Below are positions 2,239 to 63,483 of a stretch of 64,000 nucleotides of DNA, piece after piece. Made by a program: the position numbers and the translations under genes. The first letter of the stretch is position 1. Each line of letters begins with the position of its first letter. Source of the DNA: Thermoleophilaceae bacterium (GTDB taxonomy: Bacteria; Actinomycetota; Thermoleophilia; Solirubrobacterales; Thermoleophilaceae); the NCBI GenBank assembly GCA_025928265.1, contig JAICJV010000001.1, positions 1 to 64,000 of the forward strand. The letters are read 5' to 3'. A model generated the notes under the pieces. That model did not search any database and had not been told where the DNA came from. It saw only the letters and a program-made list of their open reading frames with translations.

Positions 2239-4360
2239 TGCCGTGGCCGGGGCTGTGCACGCTCGGCGGCCCCTGCGGCGGCGACGCGTAGAAGCGCGGG
2301 TCGTAGCCCTTGCCGCCGTTGCCGCCCGTACCCGTTCCGCCGCTCGTGGGCGGGGGCGGCGTGGTCGTGCCGGTCCCGGTGCCGGGCGAGCCGTAGTACT
2401 GACCGCTGCTCGACTTCTGCCCGTTCGCCGAGTGCTTGCCGTAGAACGACGACCACTGCACGGGCGTGCTCGGCGTCGGGAACGAGTTGCAGTCGGAGCC
2501 CTTGGCCTGGGTCATGTAGTCGTGCCAGATCTGCGCGGGGAAGGTGCCGCCCGCCACCTCGATGCCGTGCACGTTGCGCATCTCGACCTGCTTGTTCGGA
2601 TAGCCGACCCAGACGGCGGATGCGAGGTTGGGCGTGTAGCCCACGAACCAGGCGTCGTTGTAGTTGTCGGTCGTTCCCGTCTTGCCGGCCGCGGGGCAGC
2701 CGATGTTGGCGTGCGTGCCCGTGCCCTTCTGCACGTTCTCCTCGAGGATCTTCGTGACCTCGTACGCCTGGCCGTCGGTCAGCACCCGCTTCTGCCTGGG
2801 CTTGCCGAGGTTGTCGACCTTGCCGTCCGGGAAGACGACCTTGCGGATGGCCTGCGGCTCCGAGCGGATTCCGCCCGCGGCAAGCGTGGCGTACGCGTTC
2901 GCCATCTCGAGCGGCGAGACGCCGAGGCGCAGGCCGCCGAGACCCTCGGCCGGGACCCCGTCGAGCTTGGTCTTGATGCCGAGCAGGTGTGCCGCCTGGG
3001 CGACCTTCTTCGGCCCGACGTCGACGTCGAGCTGCGCGTACACCGAGTTGTCCGACTTGAGCGTGGCGGTCACGAGGTTCATCGTGCCGCCGTACGTGTT
3101 GTCGTAGGTCTTCACGTTCCACACGCCGTAGCCCGGCACGAGCATGTGCAGCGGCTTGGACGTGTAGTAGGTGGTGCTCGGGTTGATGCCCTGGAGGATG
3201 GCCGCGGTGAGCACCATCGGCTTGAACGAAGAGCCCGGCTGCCGGTGTCCCTGCGCCGCCAGGTTGAACGCGCGGTCCTTGTAGGTGCCGGACGACGCCA
3301 TCGCGCGGATGTAGCCGGTCTTCGGGTCGATCGAGACGATCGCGGAGCTCGGATCGGTCGAGTACGGCAGCTGGTTCTTGATCGCCTGGCGCGCGTAGTT
3401 CTGGAACTTCGGGTCGATCGTCGTGTAGACCTTGAGCCCGCCCTTGCGGTAGACGCTCGCGCCGTAGCGCTCGATGAGCAGGTCCTGCACGTAGTCGAAG
3501 AAGTACGGCTCGCGGCGCTCGGTGTAGAGGTGGCCCTGATGGAGCTTCAGCTTCCGCTCCATCGCCAGCTGTGCCTGCGCGGGTGTGATGTAGCCCGAGC
3601 TCTGCATCGCGCGGAGCACCTCGTTGCGGCGCTGGATCGCGGCCTCCGGGTTCAGCAGCGGGTTGTACTGCGATGGCGCCTGGGGCAGGCCCGCGAGCAG
3701 CGCCGACTCCGACAGCGTCAGGTCCTTGGCGTGCTTCGAGAAGTACGTCTCGGCCGCGGCCTCGATGCCGATTGCCGTGCGGCCGTTGACCGTGCCGTAG
3801 GGAACGTCGTTGAGGTACTCGCGCAGGATCCACTGCTTCGAGTGCTGGTTCTCGAGCTCGTCGGCCATCTTGGCCTCGCGGATCTTGCGCTTGAGGTCGC
3901 GCTTCGGGTCCTTGATGTAGAGCGCGCGCACGAGCTGCTGCGTGATCGTGGAGCCGCCCTGCACCGTCTTGCCCGAGGTGATGTTCTTGACGCCGGCGCG
4001 GACGATGCCCTCGAAGTCGACGCCGCCATGCTCGTAGAAGCGCTTGTCCTCGATCGCGACCGTCGCCTGTCGCACCGAGAGCGGCATGTCCCCCCACTGG
4101 ATCGGCGTGCGGATCTGGTCCGACTGGACGTAGCCGAGGCGCGATCCGTCGGCCGCGTAGATCGACGAGAGGGCGCCCTTGTCGATCGGCTTGAGGTCCT
4201 TGATATCGGGCGCCGACGCGGCCACCGCGATCACCCAGCCCACGGCTGAGAGAACGCCTACGAGAACGATCGCCAGGAGCAGCAGGAACCCAAGCCCGAC
4301 GCGCTTGCGCCCGCTGCCGCGTCCGCGGCGTTTACGTGCCTGTCGCTGGCGGTAGGTCAT
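2189..4360 (-). CDS. Class A penicillin-binding protein (transglycosylase/transpeptidase), Gly/Pro-rich C-terminus
   Basis: N-terminal TM, EDKRFYEHGGVDFEGIVRAGVKN, GGSTITQQLVR, GSSFKPMVL (SxxK), KTGTTDNYNDAWFVGYTP. Confidence 0.93.
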   Translation of the reverse strand: MTYRQRQARKRRGRGSGRKRVGLGFLLLLAIVLVGVLSAVGWVIAVAASAPDIKDLKPIDKGALSSIYAADGSRLGYVQSDQIRTPIQWGDMPLSVRQATVAIEDKRFYEHGGVDFEGIVRAGVKNITSGKTVQGGSTITQQLVRALYIKDPKRDLKRKIREAKMADELENQHSKQWILREYLNDVPYGTVNGRTAIGIEAAAETYFSKHAKDLTLSESALLAGLPQAPSQYNPLLNPEAAIQRRNEVLRAMQSSGYITPAQAQLAMERKLKLHQGHLYTERREPYFFDYVQDLLIERYGASVYRKGGLKVYTTIDPKFQNYARQAIKNQLPYSTDPSSAIVSIDPKTGYIRAMASSGTYKDRAFNLAAQGHRQPGSSFKPMVLTAAILQGINPSTTYYTSKPLHMLVPGYGVWNVKTYDNTYGGTMNLVTATLKSDNSVYAQLDVDVGPKKVAQAAHLLGIKTKLDGVPAEGLGGLRLGVSPLEMANAYATLAAGGIRSEPQAIRKVVFPDGKVDNLGKPRQKRVLTDGQAYEVTKILEENVQKGTGTHANIGCPAAGKTGTTDNYNDAWFVGYTPNLASAVWVGYPNKQVEMRNVHGIEVAGGTFPAQIWHDYMTQAKGSDCNSFPTPSTPVQWSSFYGKHSANGQKSSSGQYYGSPGTGTGTTTPPPPTSGGTGTGGNGGKGYDPRFYASPPQGPPSVHSPGHGNGNGGGRGNGGGGNGH

Positions 4361-6386: not shown

Positions 6387-7078
6387 CGGCCGTTCTAATC
6401 GATTCCTTCGGGACGCTGGTGGCGATGGAGCCGCCGGGGCCGCGGCTGCGCGACGAGCTCGCGCGGCGTGGGTTCGAGGTCTCGCCCGAGGTGGCCGAAG
6501 CCGGGTTTCGCGCCGAGATCGCCTATTACCTCGAGCATCACGTCGAGGGCCGCGACCAGGCGTCGCTCGACGAGCTGCGCGACCGCTGCGCCCGCGTGAT
6601 GAGCGAGGCGCTCGGCAATCCGGCGGTCGACGTGCGCGCCGCCATGCTGTCCGCGATCCACTTCGAGCCGTTCCCGGACGCAGCGGGCGCACTCGGGCGG
6701 TTGCGCGCGGCCGGCCTGCGCCTGGTGGTGGCCTCGAACTGGGATTGCTCGCTCGGCGAGGTCCTGCGCGAGGCGGGGCTGCGCCACCTGGTCGACGGCG
6801 TCGCGACCTCCGCGGAGGCCGGCGCGCCGAAGCCGGACCGCCGGCTGTTCGACGCCGCACTCGAACTCGCCGGCGTGGCCGCCGACCGCGCGGTCTATGT
6901 GGGGGACTCCCCGGCGAACGACGTGGGCGGCGCCACAGCCGCCGGAATCCGCGCCGTGCTGCTGCGCCGCCACGGCCCGCGGCCCGACCGCGTGCCCGCC
7001 GACTCGGCTCCGGGACCCGAGCCGGCGGCGACGATCGCGACGCTCGACGAGCTGCCGCCCCTAGTCTTGGACGGGTGA
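6368..7078 (+). CDS. HAD-superfamily hydrolase
   Basis: ITAVLIDSFGTLVAME (motif I), VVASNWD, GAPKPDRRLFDAAL, VYVGDSPANDVGGATAAGIRAVLL. GTG start at 6368 overlaps the end of the preceding gene. Confidence 0.88.
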   Translation: MALGGITAVLIDSFGTLVAMEPPGPRLRDELARRGFEVSPEVAEAGFRAEIAYYLEHHVEGRDQASLDELRDRCARVMSEALGNPAVDVRAAMLSAIHFEPFPDAAGALGRLRAAGLRLVVASNWDCSLGEVLREAGLRHLVDGVATSAEAGAPKPDRRLFDAALELAGVAADRAVYVGDSPANDVGGATAAGIRAVLLRRHGPRPDRVPADSAPGPEPAATIATLDELPPLVLDG

Positions 7079-49208: not shown

Positions 49209-50234
49209 CTACGGGGCACTCCCGCTAGCGGGGAGGGTTTTCCCGCTGTGGCCCACCGACGCGTCGCCCAGCCCGAAGAGTCGCGCGGCGTTGCGGCTGC
49301 GGATGAGCTCGAGCACCTCGTCCGGCAGATCGGCCTCCGCGAGCGTGTCGACGGTGCGCAGCGGGTCCCAGAAGGGGTAGTCGGAGCCGAACATGACGTG
49401 ATCGGGCCCGAGGAACTCGAGCGCCGATCGAAGCGCCGGCGGCCAGACGCAGACGCAGTCGGTGTACACCCGCGCGAGCGCCTCGCTCGGGGCCTCGCTG
49501 AGCCGCCCCGTCCCGCCCGGCGCCCGCTCCGCCTCGTAGTCGATCCGCCCCACGAGCTGCGGGAGCAGGCTGCCGGTGTGGCTGAGCACCAGCTTGAGAT
49601 CCGGCAGCCGCTCGAACACGCCGCCGAGGACGAGCCGGAGGATCGCCGACGTGGTGTCCACGAGGAAGCCCAGCGTCGGGATGAGCGCGTAGGCGTCGAG
49701 CTGCCGCGCGACGAGCGGGTAGGTGGGGTGGATGTGGATCGGCACGCCCAGCGCCGCCGCGGCCGCGAAGACGACCTCGAAGCGCGGCTCGTCGAGCGCG
49801 GCGCCCGCGGCGTTCGAGTAGATCATCGCCCCCACCGCGCCCGCCGCGACCGCGCGCTCGAGCTCGCCGGCGGCCTGCTCGGGCGCCTGCAGCGGCAGCG
49901 CCGCCATCACCGCGAGCCGGTCCGGGTGGCTGCGCGCGAGGTCCACCAGCTCGTCGTTCACCGCTCGCGCGATCGCGGGGCCGTCGCGCTCGGGGAACCA
50001 GTCGAGCCCGGGGACGTTGGTGCCGAGCACGGCCAGGTCGATGCCCTGTGCGTCCATGTCGCGCAGGCGCAGCCCGAGGTCGCCCATCGCGGGCAGCATC
50101 GGGTGGACGTTGCCGGCGCCGTACTCGATCACGCGCTTGCCGTCGTCGCCGGATATGCGCGGCAGCTCGCTGCGCGCGGCGAGCGCGTCGGCGAGCGTCG
50201 CCGGGAAGTAGTGGGTGTGCGTGTCGATCACCAT
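49209..50234 (-). CDS. Metal-dependent amidohydrolase (amidohydrolase 2 / ACMSD-like)
   Basis: VIDTHTHYFP, IHIHPTYPL, LVLSHTGSLLPQL, MFGSDYPFWDP. Confidence 0.87.
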   Translation of the reverse strand: MVIDTHTHYFPATLADALAARSELPRISGDDGKRVIEYGAGNVHPMLPAMGDLGLRLRDMDAQGIDLAVLGTNVPGLDWFPERDGPAIARAVNDELVDLARSHPDRLAVMAALPLQAPEQAAGELERAVAAGAVGAMIYSNAAGAALDEPRFEVVFAAAAALGVPIHIHPTYPLVARQLDAYALIPTLGFLVDTTSAILRLVLGGVFERLPDLKLVLSHTGSLLPQLVGRIDYEAERAPGGTGRLSEAPSEALARVYTDCVCVWPPALRSALEFLGPDHVMFGSDYPFWDPLRTVDTLAEADLPDEVLELIRSRNAARLFGLGDASVGHSGKTLPASGSAP

Positions 50235-51367
50235 CAGCGGAACTCCACGAACGGCCTGCGGACACGCGTGAGGTGCGAGTTGCACCAGCGCATGAACGCG
50301 GCACGCAGCGCCTCGCCGGCGCTGTCGCCGTACACACCGGTCGCGACCAGTCCGTCCAGCACACGCTCCTCGTCCGCGCTGAGCTCGACCTCGACCGTGG
50401 TGGTCGCAGGAGCCGGGCGGTAGCTCGGCACGTAGTCGGGGTCGCGCTCGAGTGCGCGCGAGGCGAGCACCGGCACGTCGGCCAGCTCGTCGCTCTTCAC
50501 CTGGCTCGCCATCCGTCCCCAGCGCTCCTCTGCCGCGTCCACGAGCCGCTCGGTGTCGGGCGAGCGGGAGTAGATCTCGAGCCTGATCGGGGTGAACGTG
50601 AAGTTGTTGATGCCGACGAGGTCGCCGAGCCCGCAGATCACCGCCGCCGCGAGGACGTCGAACATCGCCACGAGGTCGATGCGGTCGCCGCGCTGGGCCG
50701 GATTCCACTTGAAGCGGCGCCGGCCGCTGTCGTCGATCGTCGTGGCCATCCAGAGGTTGAACGAGTCGTGCACGTCGTCGGGTGTGAGGCGGTACTCGCG
50801 GATGGCCTCGGCGAGCGAGTCCTGGCAGTTCGCGTGCACCGGCATGTCCCAGCCGAGCTCGTCCAGCACGCGGTTGCAGCGATGGCCGACGATGTCTAGC
50901 TCGCACGTGTCGGCGATCTCGAGGATGCCGAACATCGGGCGCCCGCGCGGCGCGTTCGTCCAGATGAACTCGCCCCTGCGCGGGTCGAACGACTGGAAGC
51001 TGCGCGTGAAGCCGCAGTCGAGGAACTCCTTGTGGTCGTGCAGGTTGAACGCGTTGAAGTCGACGCACGTGCCGCCCTCGACCTGCTCGATGCGCAGCAC
51101 CTCGCCGCGCATCACCGGAACGGCCTTGCCGGTCACCGGCTCGAGCGTGGTCTCCCAGCGCTTCTCGCCGTATGCGGGGAACGGCGACTCGAGCACGTCC
51201 AGCTCGGGAGTGCCACCGACGTACGCCGGTGCGCCCGCCAGCCGGTCGTTCACGTGCGTGAGCAGCACGCTGCGCAGAACCTCGGCGCGCGTCGAGCCGT
51301 GACCGCCGTCAGCCGCCACGCGATCGACGAAGCCGGCCTGCGTCTCGTGCAGCTCGACAAGCGCCAC
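50234..51367 (-). CDS. DUF1989 (urea-carboxylase-associated) protein with related ribbon-helix-helix-like segments at both ends
   Basis: DUF1989-like core GTCVDFNAFNLHDHKEF...CELDIVGHRCNRVL...NLWMATTIDDSGRRRF; termini FVDRVAADGGHGSTRAEVLRSVL and VLDGLVATGVYGDSAGEALRAAF. Confidence 0.78.
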   Translation of the reverse strand: MALVELHETQAGFVDRVAADGGHGSTRAEVLRSVLLTHVNDRLAGAPAYVGGTPELDVLESPFPAYGEKRWETTLEPVTGKAVPVMRGEVLRIEQVEGGTCVDFNAFNLHDHKEFLDCGFTRSFQSFDPRRGEFIWTNAPRGRPMFGILEIADTCELDIVGHRCNRVLDELGWDMPVHANCQDSLAEAIREYRLTPDDVHDSFNLWMATTIDDSGRRRFKWNPAQRGDRIDLVAMFDVLAAAVICGLGDLVGINNFTFTPIRLEIYSRSPDTERLVDAAEERWGRMASQVKSDELADVPVLASRALERDPDYVPSYRPAPATTTVEVELSADEERVLDGLVATGVYGDSAGEALRAAFMRWCNSHLTRVRRPFVEFR

Positions 51368-51371
51368 GGAC

Positions 51372-52169
51372 TCAGAGGTCCATCAGGGCCTTGCGCTGGG
51401 CGCCGTCGATCGGGATGTGCGCGCCGTTCACGAAGCTCGCGCGCGGCGACGCCACGAACGCCACCACGTTCGCGACCTCCTGCGGCTCGCAGATCCGCCC
51501 GAGCGGAATGCTGCTCACGGCCAGCTCGTGCGCGCGCGCCTGGTCAACCTTCTTGTCGCGCGCGAAGGCCTTCTCGAGCCCGTCCCAGCGGTCCGTGTTG
51601 ACCGGCCCCGGGTTCACCGTGTTCACGCGGATGCCGTAGCGGCCGTACTGCTCCGCGGCGGAGGATGCGAAGTTGATGTCAGCGGCGTTCGCCGCGCCCG
51701 CGGTCACCTCCCAGTAGCTCGGCTTGAGGCCGTCGTTGCCCACGACGAGGACGATGCTGCCGCTGCCACGCTCGCGCATGTGCGGCAGCACGGCGGTGCA
51801 GGAGCGGACGTAGCCCATGAGCTTCAGGCTGAGGCTCACGCTCCAGTGCTCCTCGGTGAGCTCCTCGATGAGGCCGCCCGGCGAGGACCCCGCGCAGGTC
51901 ACGAGGATGTCGATGTGGCCGAGCGCGTCGATCACCTCCGACACCACGCGCTCGACGTCGGCCGGGTCGCTCATGTCTCCCGCGACCGGCACCACCTTCC
52001 GGCCGGCCGCCTCCGACAGCTCGCGCGCGGCCTGCTCGAGGCCCTCGGCGTTGCGCGCGTTGATCGCGACGTCGCAGCCCTCCTCGGCGAGGGTCTGCGC
52101 GGTGGCGCGCCCGATCCCCTTGCTCGCTCCGGTCACCAGCACCGTCGACCCCTGCAAACCGAGATCCAC
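51372..52169 (-). CDS. Short-chain dehydrogenase/reductase
   Basis: STVLVTGASKGIGRATAQTLAEEG, DILVTCAGSSPGG, YGRYGIRVNTVNPGPV; GTG 52169 with SD GGAGGG. The catalytic Tyr of YxxxK is not obvious (SSAAEQYGRYG). Confidence 0.88.
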   Translation of the reverse strand: MDLGLQGSTVLVTGASKGIGRATAQTLAEEGCDVAINARNAEGLEQAARELSEAAGRKVVPVAGDMSDPADVERVVSEVIDALGHIDILVTCAGSSPGGLIEELTEEHWSVSLSLKLMGYVRSCTAVLPHMRERGSGSIVLVVGNDGLKPSYWEVTAGAANAADINFASSAAEQYGRYGIRVNTVNPGPVNTDRWDGLEKAFARDKKVDQARAHELAVSSIPLGRICEPQEVANVVAFVASPRASFVNGAHIPIDGAQRKALMDL

Positions 52170-59521: not shown

Positions 59522-59566
59522 AAGGCACAGCAATGCGTGGTCTGCGCACGGGCGAGGCGGTTGCAT

Positions 59567-59581
59567 GGTCGAACGTCATAC
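59567..59581 (+). promoter_or_regulatory. Island operator motif, site g (GGTCGAACGTCATAC) upstream of the regulator gene
   Basis: Directly upstream of -10-like TAGCAT (59585-59590), 7 nt before ATG 59598. Confidence 0.6.
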
Positions 59582-59597
59582 GAGTAGCATCGCTGCG

Positions 59598-61826
59598 ATG
59601 GGCATGGGGCCCGTACTCGATCTCGACGAGCGGATCGAGCGCCGCTACGTGGGACTCGCACGCCTTGCGCGCGGTGTGTCCTCCGCTGCGGACTTCCGCC
59701 AGCTCGCCGCCGCCATATCGGCCGCGCTGGAGGATCCGCTCGACGACGCCCTCAGCCCGTCCGTGCGGCTGTGGGTGATCACGTCCGACGGGGTCGAGGA
59801 GGTGGCCCGCCACTCGCCGGACCGCGAGCTGCCGAACCTGCATCAGCGCGAGCTCCAGCGCGCGGCGGTGCGTCCCGGCCCGAGCGAGACCGGGAGCGGC
59901 AGCCTGCTCGCGGGGCTCCACGCGAGCGGCATGAGCCTCGGCGTGCTGGAGGTGGGCGAGGAGGCAGGGGACCTCGAGCTGCTGTCGGATGCCGCGCCGA
60001 TCGTGGCCTGCGGAGTCGGGCTGCTCGCCGGGCAGGGCGTGAGCGAGGTGCTGCCCGCCCCGGTCGCCGTCCAGGGCGCGAGCGACGTGGCGGCGCTGAT
60101 GGCCACGTTCGCCGCCGAGGCGAAGCACATGCTCGACCACGACCGGCTGAGCGCCTACCTCCTGACGGCCGACGGGCGCGCGTTCGAGCGCTTCGCCGTG
60201 GCCACATCGCCGATCGTGCCGGGCGAGGGCGTGATCATCCCGTTCGAGGACGTGGGGCTGCGCCATGTCGTGGTCACCAACCGCCCGATCGTGTCGGCCG
60301 ACCTCGCCGGCGACCCGCGGATCGTGGGGCGCGAGGACCGCGTGATCGCGCGCGCGGGGTTCCACGGGCTGATCAGCGTTCCGCTGCGGCTCGAGGGCCG
60401 CCCCTTCGGGGTGCTCAACTTCGTGAGCCGCACGCCGGGCTTCTATGCCGACCACGACCTGCCGATCGCGCAACAGATCGCCGACCAGGTCGCGGCGTTC
60501 ATCGGCAACCTGCGGGCGCAGGACCGGATGCGCACACTGATCCGCCACGAGGCCGCCGAGGCGGAGCGGGCGCGCGTCGCGCGGGAGCTCTACCACGCTG
60601 TCGCGCAGACGCTGCCGGCGATCGAGGCGGCGGCGCAGTCGCTCGAGCGGCGCGTGGCCGCTACCGACGACGTGGCGCGCGACGAGGCGCGGCGCGTGCG
60701 CGAGCTGGTCCGGCTCGAGCTGGCCGACGTCCGGCGCGCCGTGGCGGATCTCGCGCCGCGCGGCCTCGAGTCGCAGTCGCTGGCGGACGCGCTCGAACGG
60801 GCCACCGCCGCTTTCGGCGACGGGCCGCCGCGCGCCCACCTGGTCGTGGAGGGCGACGCCTCCGGCCTCTCGTGCGCGGTGCGGCGCGCGACGTACCGGA
60901 TCTTCCAGGAGGCCGTGACCAACGCGCGCGTTCACGCGCACGCGAGCTCCATCACCGTGGCGCTTCGCGTCGGGCGCGACCTCGAGCTCACGGTGAGCGA
61001 CGACGGCGACGGCTTCGAACCGGCCGACGCGAAGCGTGCCGGCGGCACCGGGATCGGCTTCATGCGCGAGCGCGCGCAGGCGCTCGGCGGGACGCTCGAC
61101 ATCGAGAGTGCGAGCGGGCGCGGCACCACGGTCTGCTTCGAGCTGCTCGACGCACGGGACCCCGCCGACGAGGCCGTGCCACTCGACGAGCCGCCCGCCG
61201 CGGCGCCGGCGAAGCTGCGCGTCTTCGTCACCGAGCCGCACGGCCTCACGCGCGCGGGGATCGTCGCGCTGCTGGAACGCGCCGACGGGATCCGCGTGGT
61301 GGGCGACGCCGCGGGCGCCGAGGCCACGCGCGCCCAGGTGCGGCGCGTCCATCCCGACGTGGTGCTGCTCGACGGTCACCTCGGCGAGGCGGAGGTGGAC
61401 CGCACGCTCGAGGAGATCAAGTCGGCGCTCCCGGCCTGCGCGGTGCTCGTGCTCGCCGACTACGACACCGGCCGCGACGGCGACCTCGTGGCCCACGGCG
61501 CGAGCGGCGTGGTGCCCAAGGCGATGACCGGCGACGAGCTGGCCGAGACGGTTCGCGCGGTGGCGCGCGGCGACAAGGTCGCGCGCTTCGGCCCCGGCGA
61601 CCAGGCGGCCGGCACGGGCCTGAGTGCGCGCGAGCGAGCAGTTCTCGCGCTGATGACCGCAGGCCGCACGAACGCCGAGATCGGCGTGACGCTGTTCCTC
61701 GCCACGAAGACCGTCGAGCGCCAGGTGGCCACGATCATCCGCAAGCTGGGGGCGCGCAACCGCGCCCACGCGGGCGCCCTCGCGGTGGCCCGCCGCCTCG
61801 TGGACCCCTCCGAGCTCGACGACTGA
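59598..61826 (+). CDS. Single-chain GAF / histidine-kinase-like / receiver / LuxR-HTH regulator
   Basis: GAF (FHGLISVPLRLEGRPFGVLNFVSR), HisKA_3-like ERARVARELYHAVAQTL, HATPase YRIFQEAVTNARVHAHA...DDGDGFEP...GTGIGFMRERAQALGG, REC-like LRVFVTEPHGLTRAGI...PDVVLLDGHLG, LuxR LSARERAVLALMTAGRTNAEIGVTLFLATKTVERQVATIIRKL. Confidence 0.9.
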   Translation: MGMGPVLDLDERIERRYVGLARLARGVSSAADFRQLAAAISAALEDPLDDALSPSVRLWVITSDGVEEVARHSPDRELPNLHQRELQRAAVRPGPSETGSGSLLAGLHASGMSLGVLEVGEEAGDLELLSDAAPIVACGVGLLAGQGVSEVLPAPVAVQGASDVAALMATFAAEAKHMLDHDRLSAYLLTADGRAFERFAVATSPIVPGEGVIIPFEDVGLRHVVVTNRPIVSADLAGDPRIVGREDRVIARAGFHGLISVPLRLEGRPFGVLNFVSRTPGFYADHDLPIAQQIADQVAAFIGNLRAQDRMRTLIRHEAAEAERARVARELYHAVAQTLPAIEAAAQSLERRVAATDDVARDEARRVRELVRLELADVRRAVADLAPRGLESQSLADALERATAAFGDGPPRAHLVVEGDASGLSCAVRRATYRIFQEAVTNARVHAHASSITVALRVGRDLELTVSDDGDGFEPADAKRAGGTGIGFMRERAQALGGTLDIESASGRGTTVCFELLDARDPADEAVPLDEPPAAAPAKLRVFVTEPHGLTRAGIVALLERADGIRVVGDAAGAEATRAQVRRVHPDVVLLDGHLGEAEVDRTLEEIKSALPACAVLVLADYDTGRDGDLVAHGASGVVPKAMTGDELAETVRAVARGDKVARFGPGDQAAGTGLSARERAVLALMTAGRTNAEIGVTLFLATKTVERQVATIIRKLGARNRAHAGALAVARRLVDPSELDD

Positions 61827-61831
61827 CGGCA

Positions 61832-62848
61832 CTAGCTGCGCGCGGCCGGTTCCGCAACGCGGTACGCACGCAGCGCGTTACCGCCCAGCACCTTCTCCAC
61901 CGCCTCCGGCGGCGCGATGTGCGGCAGCGTCTCGAGCGCCGACACGTCGGCCATGTCGAACGGCAGGTCCGTCCCGAACATGACGGCGTCCGGTCCGGCC
62001 AGCTCGAGCAGGAAGCGCAGCGCGCGCTCGTCGAACACGATCGTGTCGAAGAGGAAGTTCCCCAGGTACTCGCGCGGCGGCCGCTGCGCGACAACCCGCA
62101 CATCCTCGCGCGCCCCATAAGCGTGATGGAGCCGGCCGAGCTGGTACGGGAACGAGCCGCCCGCGTGCACCAGCTGGAAGCGCAGCTTCGGGTGCCGGTC
62201 CAGCACGCCGCCGACGATCAGGCGGGCGGCCGCCACGAACGTCTCGTACGGATTGCCCACCACGTTCGAGAGGTGGTATCCGGTCAGGTCGGGGCCGGGC
62301 TTGGCCACCATGTTGAGGTACGGGTGGAGCATGACCGTCACGTCGAGCTCCTCCACGGCCGCGAAGAACGGCTCGAACTCCGGCGAGTCGAGCATCGTGT
62401 CGCCCATGCTCGGCCCGATCTCGGCGCCCGCCAGGCCGAGCTCGCCGCACGCGCGCCTGAGTTCCTCGGCGGCCGCCGCCGGGTCGTTGAGGGGCACCGT
62501 GGCGAGCACCGCGATCCGCCCGTTCGAGCGTGCGGCGTACGCGGCTCCCGCGTCGTTGATCACGCGGTGCGCCCGCAGCGTCACCTCCGGGTCGATCTCG
62601 TAGAGAAACAGCGACGGGACGATCGAGCAGAGCGACACGTCGATCCCGTCGCGATCCATCTGCGCGACCTTCTCCGCCGGGTCGTGGAACAGCGGGAACA
62701 CCGGGTAGGCGAGCCCGTTCGAATGCGAGATGAGCGGGTCGCGGCCCTCGCGGTCCACCACCTCGAGCCCCTCCGGCCCGCCGCCCTCGCGCAGGAACTC
62801 GACGAACTCGAGCGGGATGAAGTGGGTGTGCGCGTCTACGACCGTCAC
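61832..62848 (-). CDS. Metal-dependent amidohydrolase (amidohydrolase 2 / ACMSD-like)
   Basis: VVDAHTHFIPLEF, VMLHPYLNMVAKPGPDL, FQLVHAGGSFPYQLGR, MFGTDLPFDM; GTG start overlaps the DUF1989 stop. Confidence 0.88.
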   Translation of the reverse strand: MTVVDAHTHFIPLEFVEFLREGGGPEGLEVVDREGRDPLISHSNGLAYPVFPLFHDPAEKVAQMDRDGIDVSLCSIVPSLFLYEIDPEVTLRAHRVINDAGAAYAARSNGRIAVLATVPLNDPAAAAEELRRACGELGLAGAEIGPSMGDTMLDSPEFEPFFAAVEELDVTVMLHPYLNMVAKPGPDLTGYHLSNVVGNPYETFVAAARLIVGGVLDRHPKLRFQLVHAGGSFPYQLGRLHHAYGAREDVRVVAQRPPREYLGNFLFDTIVFDERALRFLLELAGPDAVMFGTDLPFDMADVSALETLPHIAPPEAVEKVLGGNALRAYRVAEPAARS

Positions 62849-63483
62849 GCGTCGAAGACCTCGATCCTCATCGGCGTGCAGTTGCGGTCGTTGCACTCGG
62901 TGAGCAGGTCCTCCGGGCAGTTCGAGAGTCCCACGAGCAGGTCCATCTCGGCGCGGAACTCGATGTAGTCGCCCGGCTTCGATACCGGACTGAGGATCTC
63001 CCAGCGGTGCTTCTCGCAGTTGTGCTGGTAGTTCATGAAGACGTCCATCGTGTCCGGGATGTCCTCCGGCTCGATCCCGTACGACGCCACGGCCTTGCTG
63101 ATGATCTCGTGGCAGCCGTCCTGCACCTCGACGCCGTGCGACTCGAACAGGAAGCGGTTGCACATGCGGTTGTGGACGTCGTGGATCCCCTTCGGCTCAG
63201 GGGTGTCCTCGACGATGGTCATCATCGGCCGGCACAGCGTGGACATCAGCGTGTCGCCCACGCTCAGGTGGTCGCGCGGGATGTACTCCTGCCCCGGCGG
63301 CGGCACGTAGCGCGTCCGCGAGTTCGACGTCGAGAGCTTCTCGCGGTAGTTGTCCGCGTTGAACAGCGCCACGTCCACCACCTGCTTGCCCTCGATGTCG
63401 GTGATCCGCAGGTGCTGCCCCTTCGACACCTCGACCGCGTGGCCGGACTTCGGGGCCATGACGTGCTCGTGGACCTGGTTCAC
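62845..63483 (-). CDS. DUF1989 (urea-carboxylase-associated) family protein
   Basis: LRITDIEGKQVVDVALFNADNYREKLSTSNSRTRY...DTLMSTLCRPMMTIVED...HDVHNRMCNRFLFE. Confidence 0.85.
   Translation of the reverse strand: MNQVHEHVMAPKSGHAVEVSKGQHLRITDIEGKQVVDVALFNADNYREKLSTSNSRTRYVPPPGQEYIPRDHLSVGDTLMSTLCRPMMTIVEDTPEPKGIHDVHNRMCNRFLFESHGVEVQDGCHEIISKAVASYGIEPEDIPDTMDVFMNYQHNCEKHRWEILSPVSKPGDYIEFRAEMDLLVGLSNCPEDLLTECNDRNCTPMRIEVFDA

Follow-up and report, generated by a model that had tools for sequence, protein, structure and literature searches.

The 377-aa protein encoded from a GTG start on the minus strand at 50234..51367 of the window (the whole 64,000-nt stretch of DNA analysed) carries an arm of the ribbon-helix-helix (RHH) type at each end of a DUF1989 core. 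Judging by its conserved residues, it is probably a zinc-dependent enzyme of the DUF1989 type. It seems reasonably probable that its quaternary structure is built on a heteromeric RHH clasp, in which the N-terminal arm (N-arm) pairs with the C-terminal arm (C-arm). The origin of the arm pair is the fusion of a small RHH subunit gene to the gene of an RHH-tailed enzyme.

The core (residues 74–239; 50651..51148, minus strand) is recognised by the Pfam DUF1989 model (PF09347) with 117.1 bits against a cut-off of 27 (E 8.2e-34 for the protein). Its Cys3/His/Asp metal site is intact, all five residues being invariant in the family alignment. Cys164 (50876..50878), Cys181 (50825..50827) and Cys245 (50633..50635) align with the first, second and third zinc cysteines of the TMAO demethylase Tdm, respectively, and His178 (50834..50836) aligns with Tdm H276; the site is completed by Asp103 (51059..51061; all codons on the minus strand). 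The zinc-binding residues of Tdm used for this alignment were taken from PMC12560246. Residues 49–294 of the full-chain model match the DUF1989 structure 3di4 (Z 20.6), and the fold search with this model covered the core only.

The N-arm (residues 4–43; 51239..51358) is connected to the core by a linker (residues 44–73; 51149..51238) modelled mostly with low confidence, while the C-arm occupies residues 322–366 (50270..50404; all on the minus strand). The full-chain model (pLDDT 62.5 overall, too weak for judging the packing of the arms) predicts a strand-helix-helix order at both ends: strand 2–7 followed by helices 8–20 and 27–42 in the N-arm, and strand 322–327 followed by helices 331–343 and 350–366 in the C-arm. 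Modelled alone, the C-arm reaches a pLDDT of 88.5, its strand being unassigned without a partner. The solved folds nearest to this model are those of ParD2, PrpA, ParD1, NikR and ArtA (44–50 residues, 1.9–2.9 Å, Z 4.8–5.8); plant TCP domains give similar Z values with a larger rmsd. Since the Foldseek E-values of this very short chain exceed 1, the fold evidence for the C-arm rests on the consistency of the match list and on the profile matches. The N-arm is a translated segment, because in comparison with the 76%-identical locus L033 the differences over it are in excess at third codon positions (0.53, compared with 0.21 at the first two positions).

Both arms are homologous to RHH proteins. 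Residues 4–43 and 327–366 align without gaps (12 identities in 40 positions, BLOSUM62 score 51), a score reached in none of 5000 shuffles, and the best match of the N-arm elsewhere in the protein starts at residue 327. Scanning of the window arms alone with Pfam and NCBIfam gave no RHH family over the cut-off, and profiles of the arms were therefore built. In a profile-profile comparison, the profile of the N-arm matches that of the C-arm (97.2%, E 4.7e-11). The hhalign E-values against RHH antitoxins are 1.8e-10 (N-arm) and 2.2e-8 (C-arm); these antitoxins were chosen by the arm profiles and the comparison is thus not independent, but their Pfam assignment is (RHH_1, ParD_antitoxin, RHH_8 or RHH_5 in the four antitoxin-like ORFs scanned). 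Most of the weaker genome matches to either profile are ORFs of the typical RHH antitoxin-like kind. RHH_1 is also the Pfam family most often matched by single N-arms (three of nine, best E 0.0045, sub-threshold), and the RHH matches of the arm profiles among PDB sequences are non-significant (ParD-1, E 0.71; NikR, E 0.58) and lie amid chance matches. The sequence-only reading had proposed that the two ends of the protein align with each other and resemble RHH segments flanking a DUF1989 core; this is borne out by the shuffling test, the profile homology, the predicted β-α-α order and the fold matches, and the predictions show the arms neither as a part of the DUF1989 fold nor as plain helical hairpins.

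Relatives were sought in genomes of the class (399), the phylum (396) and the order (232), and in a species-level genome collection, which was scanned once. Nine distinct loci, the window included, encode a protein related over both the core and the C-arm. They belong to Actinobacteria and one archaeal MAG (L035, whose contig bears the label of a Thaumarchaeota MAG) and come mostly from MAG-type or draft assemblies, which are incomplete (the assembly of the window is 73% complete). In a tree with 15 other DUF1989 proteins, the armed loci group together as a single clade (support 100/99). They share the core fold and the Cys3/His/Asp metal-site residues with the DUF1989 structures 3di4 and 3oru/3siy and with the DUF1989 domain of TMAO demethylase, 9q59 (PMC12560246), but the matched regions are confined to the core, and the separate clade falls below the NCBIfam cut-offs for Tdm, UAAP1 and UAAP2. 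The arms are absent from all 20 other DUF1989 loci with a located core. The second DUF1989 protein of the window (62845-63483; 212 aa, DUF1989 at residues 8–183) has no arm match, as already noticed from its sequence. No relative was found in viral contigs; 139 plasmid records have a DUF1989 match, and the two examined, from Rhodococcus and Klebsiella, are without arms.

The C-arm is present in nine of the nine members, and so is the N-arm, either fused or separate. It is fused to the enzyme in the window, L033, L045 and L048. In the remaining five loci (L034, L035, L044, L046 and L047) it is a separate ORF of 49–62 codons located directly upstream in a different frame. This ORF overlaps the start of the enzyme gene by 4 nt (ATGA) in L034, L046 and L047, by 8 nt in L044 and by 11 nt in L035; plausible ribosome sites are seen for L044, L046 and L047. 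In fused members the linker is the point at which the separate ORF is joined. A signature N-Q-Q-Q-x-x-L-L-D characterises the N-arm, one Gln and one Gly being invariant in nine of nine, and leave-one-out profiles recover every N-arm except that of L048, the most divergent one. In L033 a run of 10 N at 6960-6969, between the core and the C-arm, shifts the frame; it is an assembly gap, and the C-arm resumes in another frame.

Strongly supported branches of the tree alone demand at least two changes between the fused and split states, as one would expect of interacting subunits. Matches of either arm profile with E<1e-10 occur only at armed loci (299 genomes), so the small protein is dedicated to the DUF1989 enzyme. 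Because the N-arm is a gene of its own in most relatives, the arms of the window protein were brought together by gene fusion and not by recent internal duplication, and the internally duplicated arm suggested from the sequence gives way to this origin.

An RHH unit consists of two β-α-α halves. Since both halves are needed and each locus supplies one of each, pairing of the N-arm with the C-arm is the simplest reading. One half would be the C-terminal tail of the enzyme; the other would be a subunit of 49–62 aa, which most relatives encode in the overlapping ORF upstream and which is fused N-terminally in the window protein. The halves could pair via antiparallel strands and interlocked helices in the style of an RHH dimer. 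Such a clasp would hold enzyme protomers or ends together, the reading of DNA not being its main role, while the enzyme would most likely hydrolyse or deiminate a small N-containing intermediate of the surrounding catabolic operon.

The chances seem about even that a metal enzyme has here taken over the RHH fold, familiar as a homodimeric module for DNA binding, as a heteromeric clasp that does not bind DNA, one half of which comes from an overlooked subunit gene of ~50 aa that has been fused or split more than once. Among open papers, none joining DUF1989 with ribbon-helix-helix was found. The subfamily would have a hidden small subunit, its ORF being short enough for annotation to miss, and expression of the large gene of a split member alone would leave half of the complex missing. 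If the pairing is true, a DNA-binding fold has been turned into an enzyme-assembly module, and the natural split and fused versions allow direct testing.

Alternatively, the protein could be an enzyme and autorepressor similar to PutA, its RHH arms binding the DNA of the operon and its DUF1989 domain sensing or turning over the substrate. The homology of the arms to RHH DNA-binding proteins agrees with this, and trifunctional PutA is a precedent: the RHH domain of this catabolic enzyme mediates dimerisation and yet represses (PMC5293562). However, PutA has a single N-terminal RHH half, which self-dimerises for DNA, whereas the armed enzyme comes with two, of which one is frequently encoded by its own gene, and there is no indication of DNA binding. 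Every member has an acidic arm pair (net charge -2 to -8, the C-arm of L033 being incomplete), with means of -2.4 for the N-arm and -3.3 for the C-arm against +0.6 for antitoxin arms; this argument is drawn from sequence, and among the antitoxin arms the charge varies between -2 and +3. The basic residue that marks RHH regulators on the exposed face of the strand was likewise missing at the sequence level, the strand Arg being found in only one of 17 scorable arms versus six of seven RHH antitoxins. In the window, L034 and L046 the genes lie inside operons, and the DUF1989 gene of the window begins 4 nt downstream of an SDR gene, which leaves it no promoter space of its own. Three putative upstream regions (L044, L035 and L048) contain no common repeat. 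A main DNA-binding role is thus less likely, and the autorepressor is improbable. The earlier guess of a DNA-binding or dimerising metabolic sensor survives in its dimerising half; the DNA-binding sensor is disfavoured by the acidic arms, the missing strand Arg and the operon-internal position.

RHH proteins are homodimers as a rule. Each arm could accordingly pair with its own kind (N/N and C/C), which would give the enzyme two separate oligomerisation handles and crosslink its units into a larger complex. This arrangement also fits the gene layout, and DUF1989 enzymes can form higher oligomers, such as the Tdm hexamer (PMC12560246). It leaves unexplained, however, why one small ORF is coupled to one tailed enzyme at each locus and why fusions are repeated, and we regard it as unlikely.

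Antitoxins of the ParD type bind partners from their own operon and inhibit them, and RHH antitoxins are close relatives of the N-arm family, but a small ORF acting as an antitoxin-like activity regulator, which would dock on the C-arm and control the enzyme until fusion locks one state, is very unlikely, since regulation via free subunit levels is impossible in fused members and no toxin fold was seen. The arms share the RHH fold and sequence homology with ParD/CopG antitoxins and NikR; in contrast to these, they are tethered to or coupled with an enzyme, are acidic, have the strand Arg replaced and adjoin no toxin gene that could be seen. Assignment to a type II toxin-antitoxin system was rejected: the partner gene is a DUF1989 enzyme, and the neighbours scanned are catabolic and transport genes, with no toxin among them.

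In the window, the armed gene is flanked on the same minus strand by an Amidohydro_2 (PF04909) amidohydrolase downstream (49209..50231, 2-nt gap) and by the SDR dehydrogenase upstream (51372..52169, 4-nt gap). Xdh-type molybdenum oxidoreductases lie near the armed genes in the window and L044. Amidohydrolases are found nearby in the window, L033 and L046, isochorismatase-like hydrolases in L047 and L048, RidA-like proteins in L045 and L047, an asparaginase near L034 and an aldehyde dehydrogenase near L046. ABC importers lie near the armed genes of the window and L045 according to Pfam, and of L044, L046 and L048 as judged by inspection. Taken across the loci, these oxidoreductases, hydrolases and importers point to catabolism of an N-containing compound. 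By analogy with its family, the armed enzyme could perform deimination or hydrolysis of a small molecule; the carboxyguanidine deiminase CgdA/CgdB (UAAP1/2) is a family-level DUF1989 relative, which makes a C-N reaction on a small molecule plausible.

Two known functions were considered and rejected. For the guanidine pathway (CgdAB), the window protein scores 45 bits with the UAAP1 model (cut-off 206) and 43 bits with the UAAP2 model (cut-off 285), far too low in both cases, and a urea carboxylase linked to it is lacking: this enzyme exceeds its cut-off in only one of seven armed genomes, on another contig, and nowhere in the assembly of the window. The protein is not a TMAO demethylase either, since it scores 54.8 bits with the Tdm model against a cut-off of 1100 and its 377 aa contain no GcvT match.

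Two pairs of DUF1989 and Amidohydro_2 genes (both PF04909) are present in the window, at 49209-51367 and 61832-63483, one with RHH arms and one without. The second pair is adjoined by a 753-aa ORF on the plus strand (59565-61823), which appears to combine GAF, histidine-kinase-like and response-regulator parts in one chain. In L047, a 464-aa protein (2824-4215), whose gene lies upstream of those for the isochorismatase and for the split DUF1989 pair, seems to consist of three tandem RidA-like units (Pfam Ribonuc_L-PSP).
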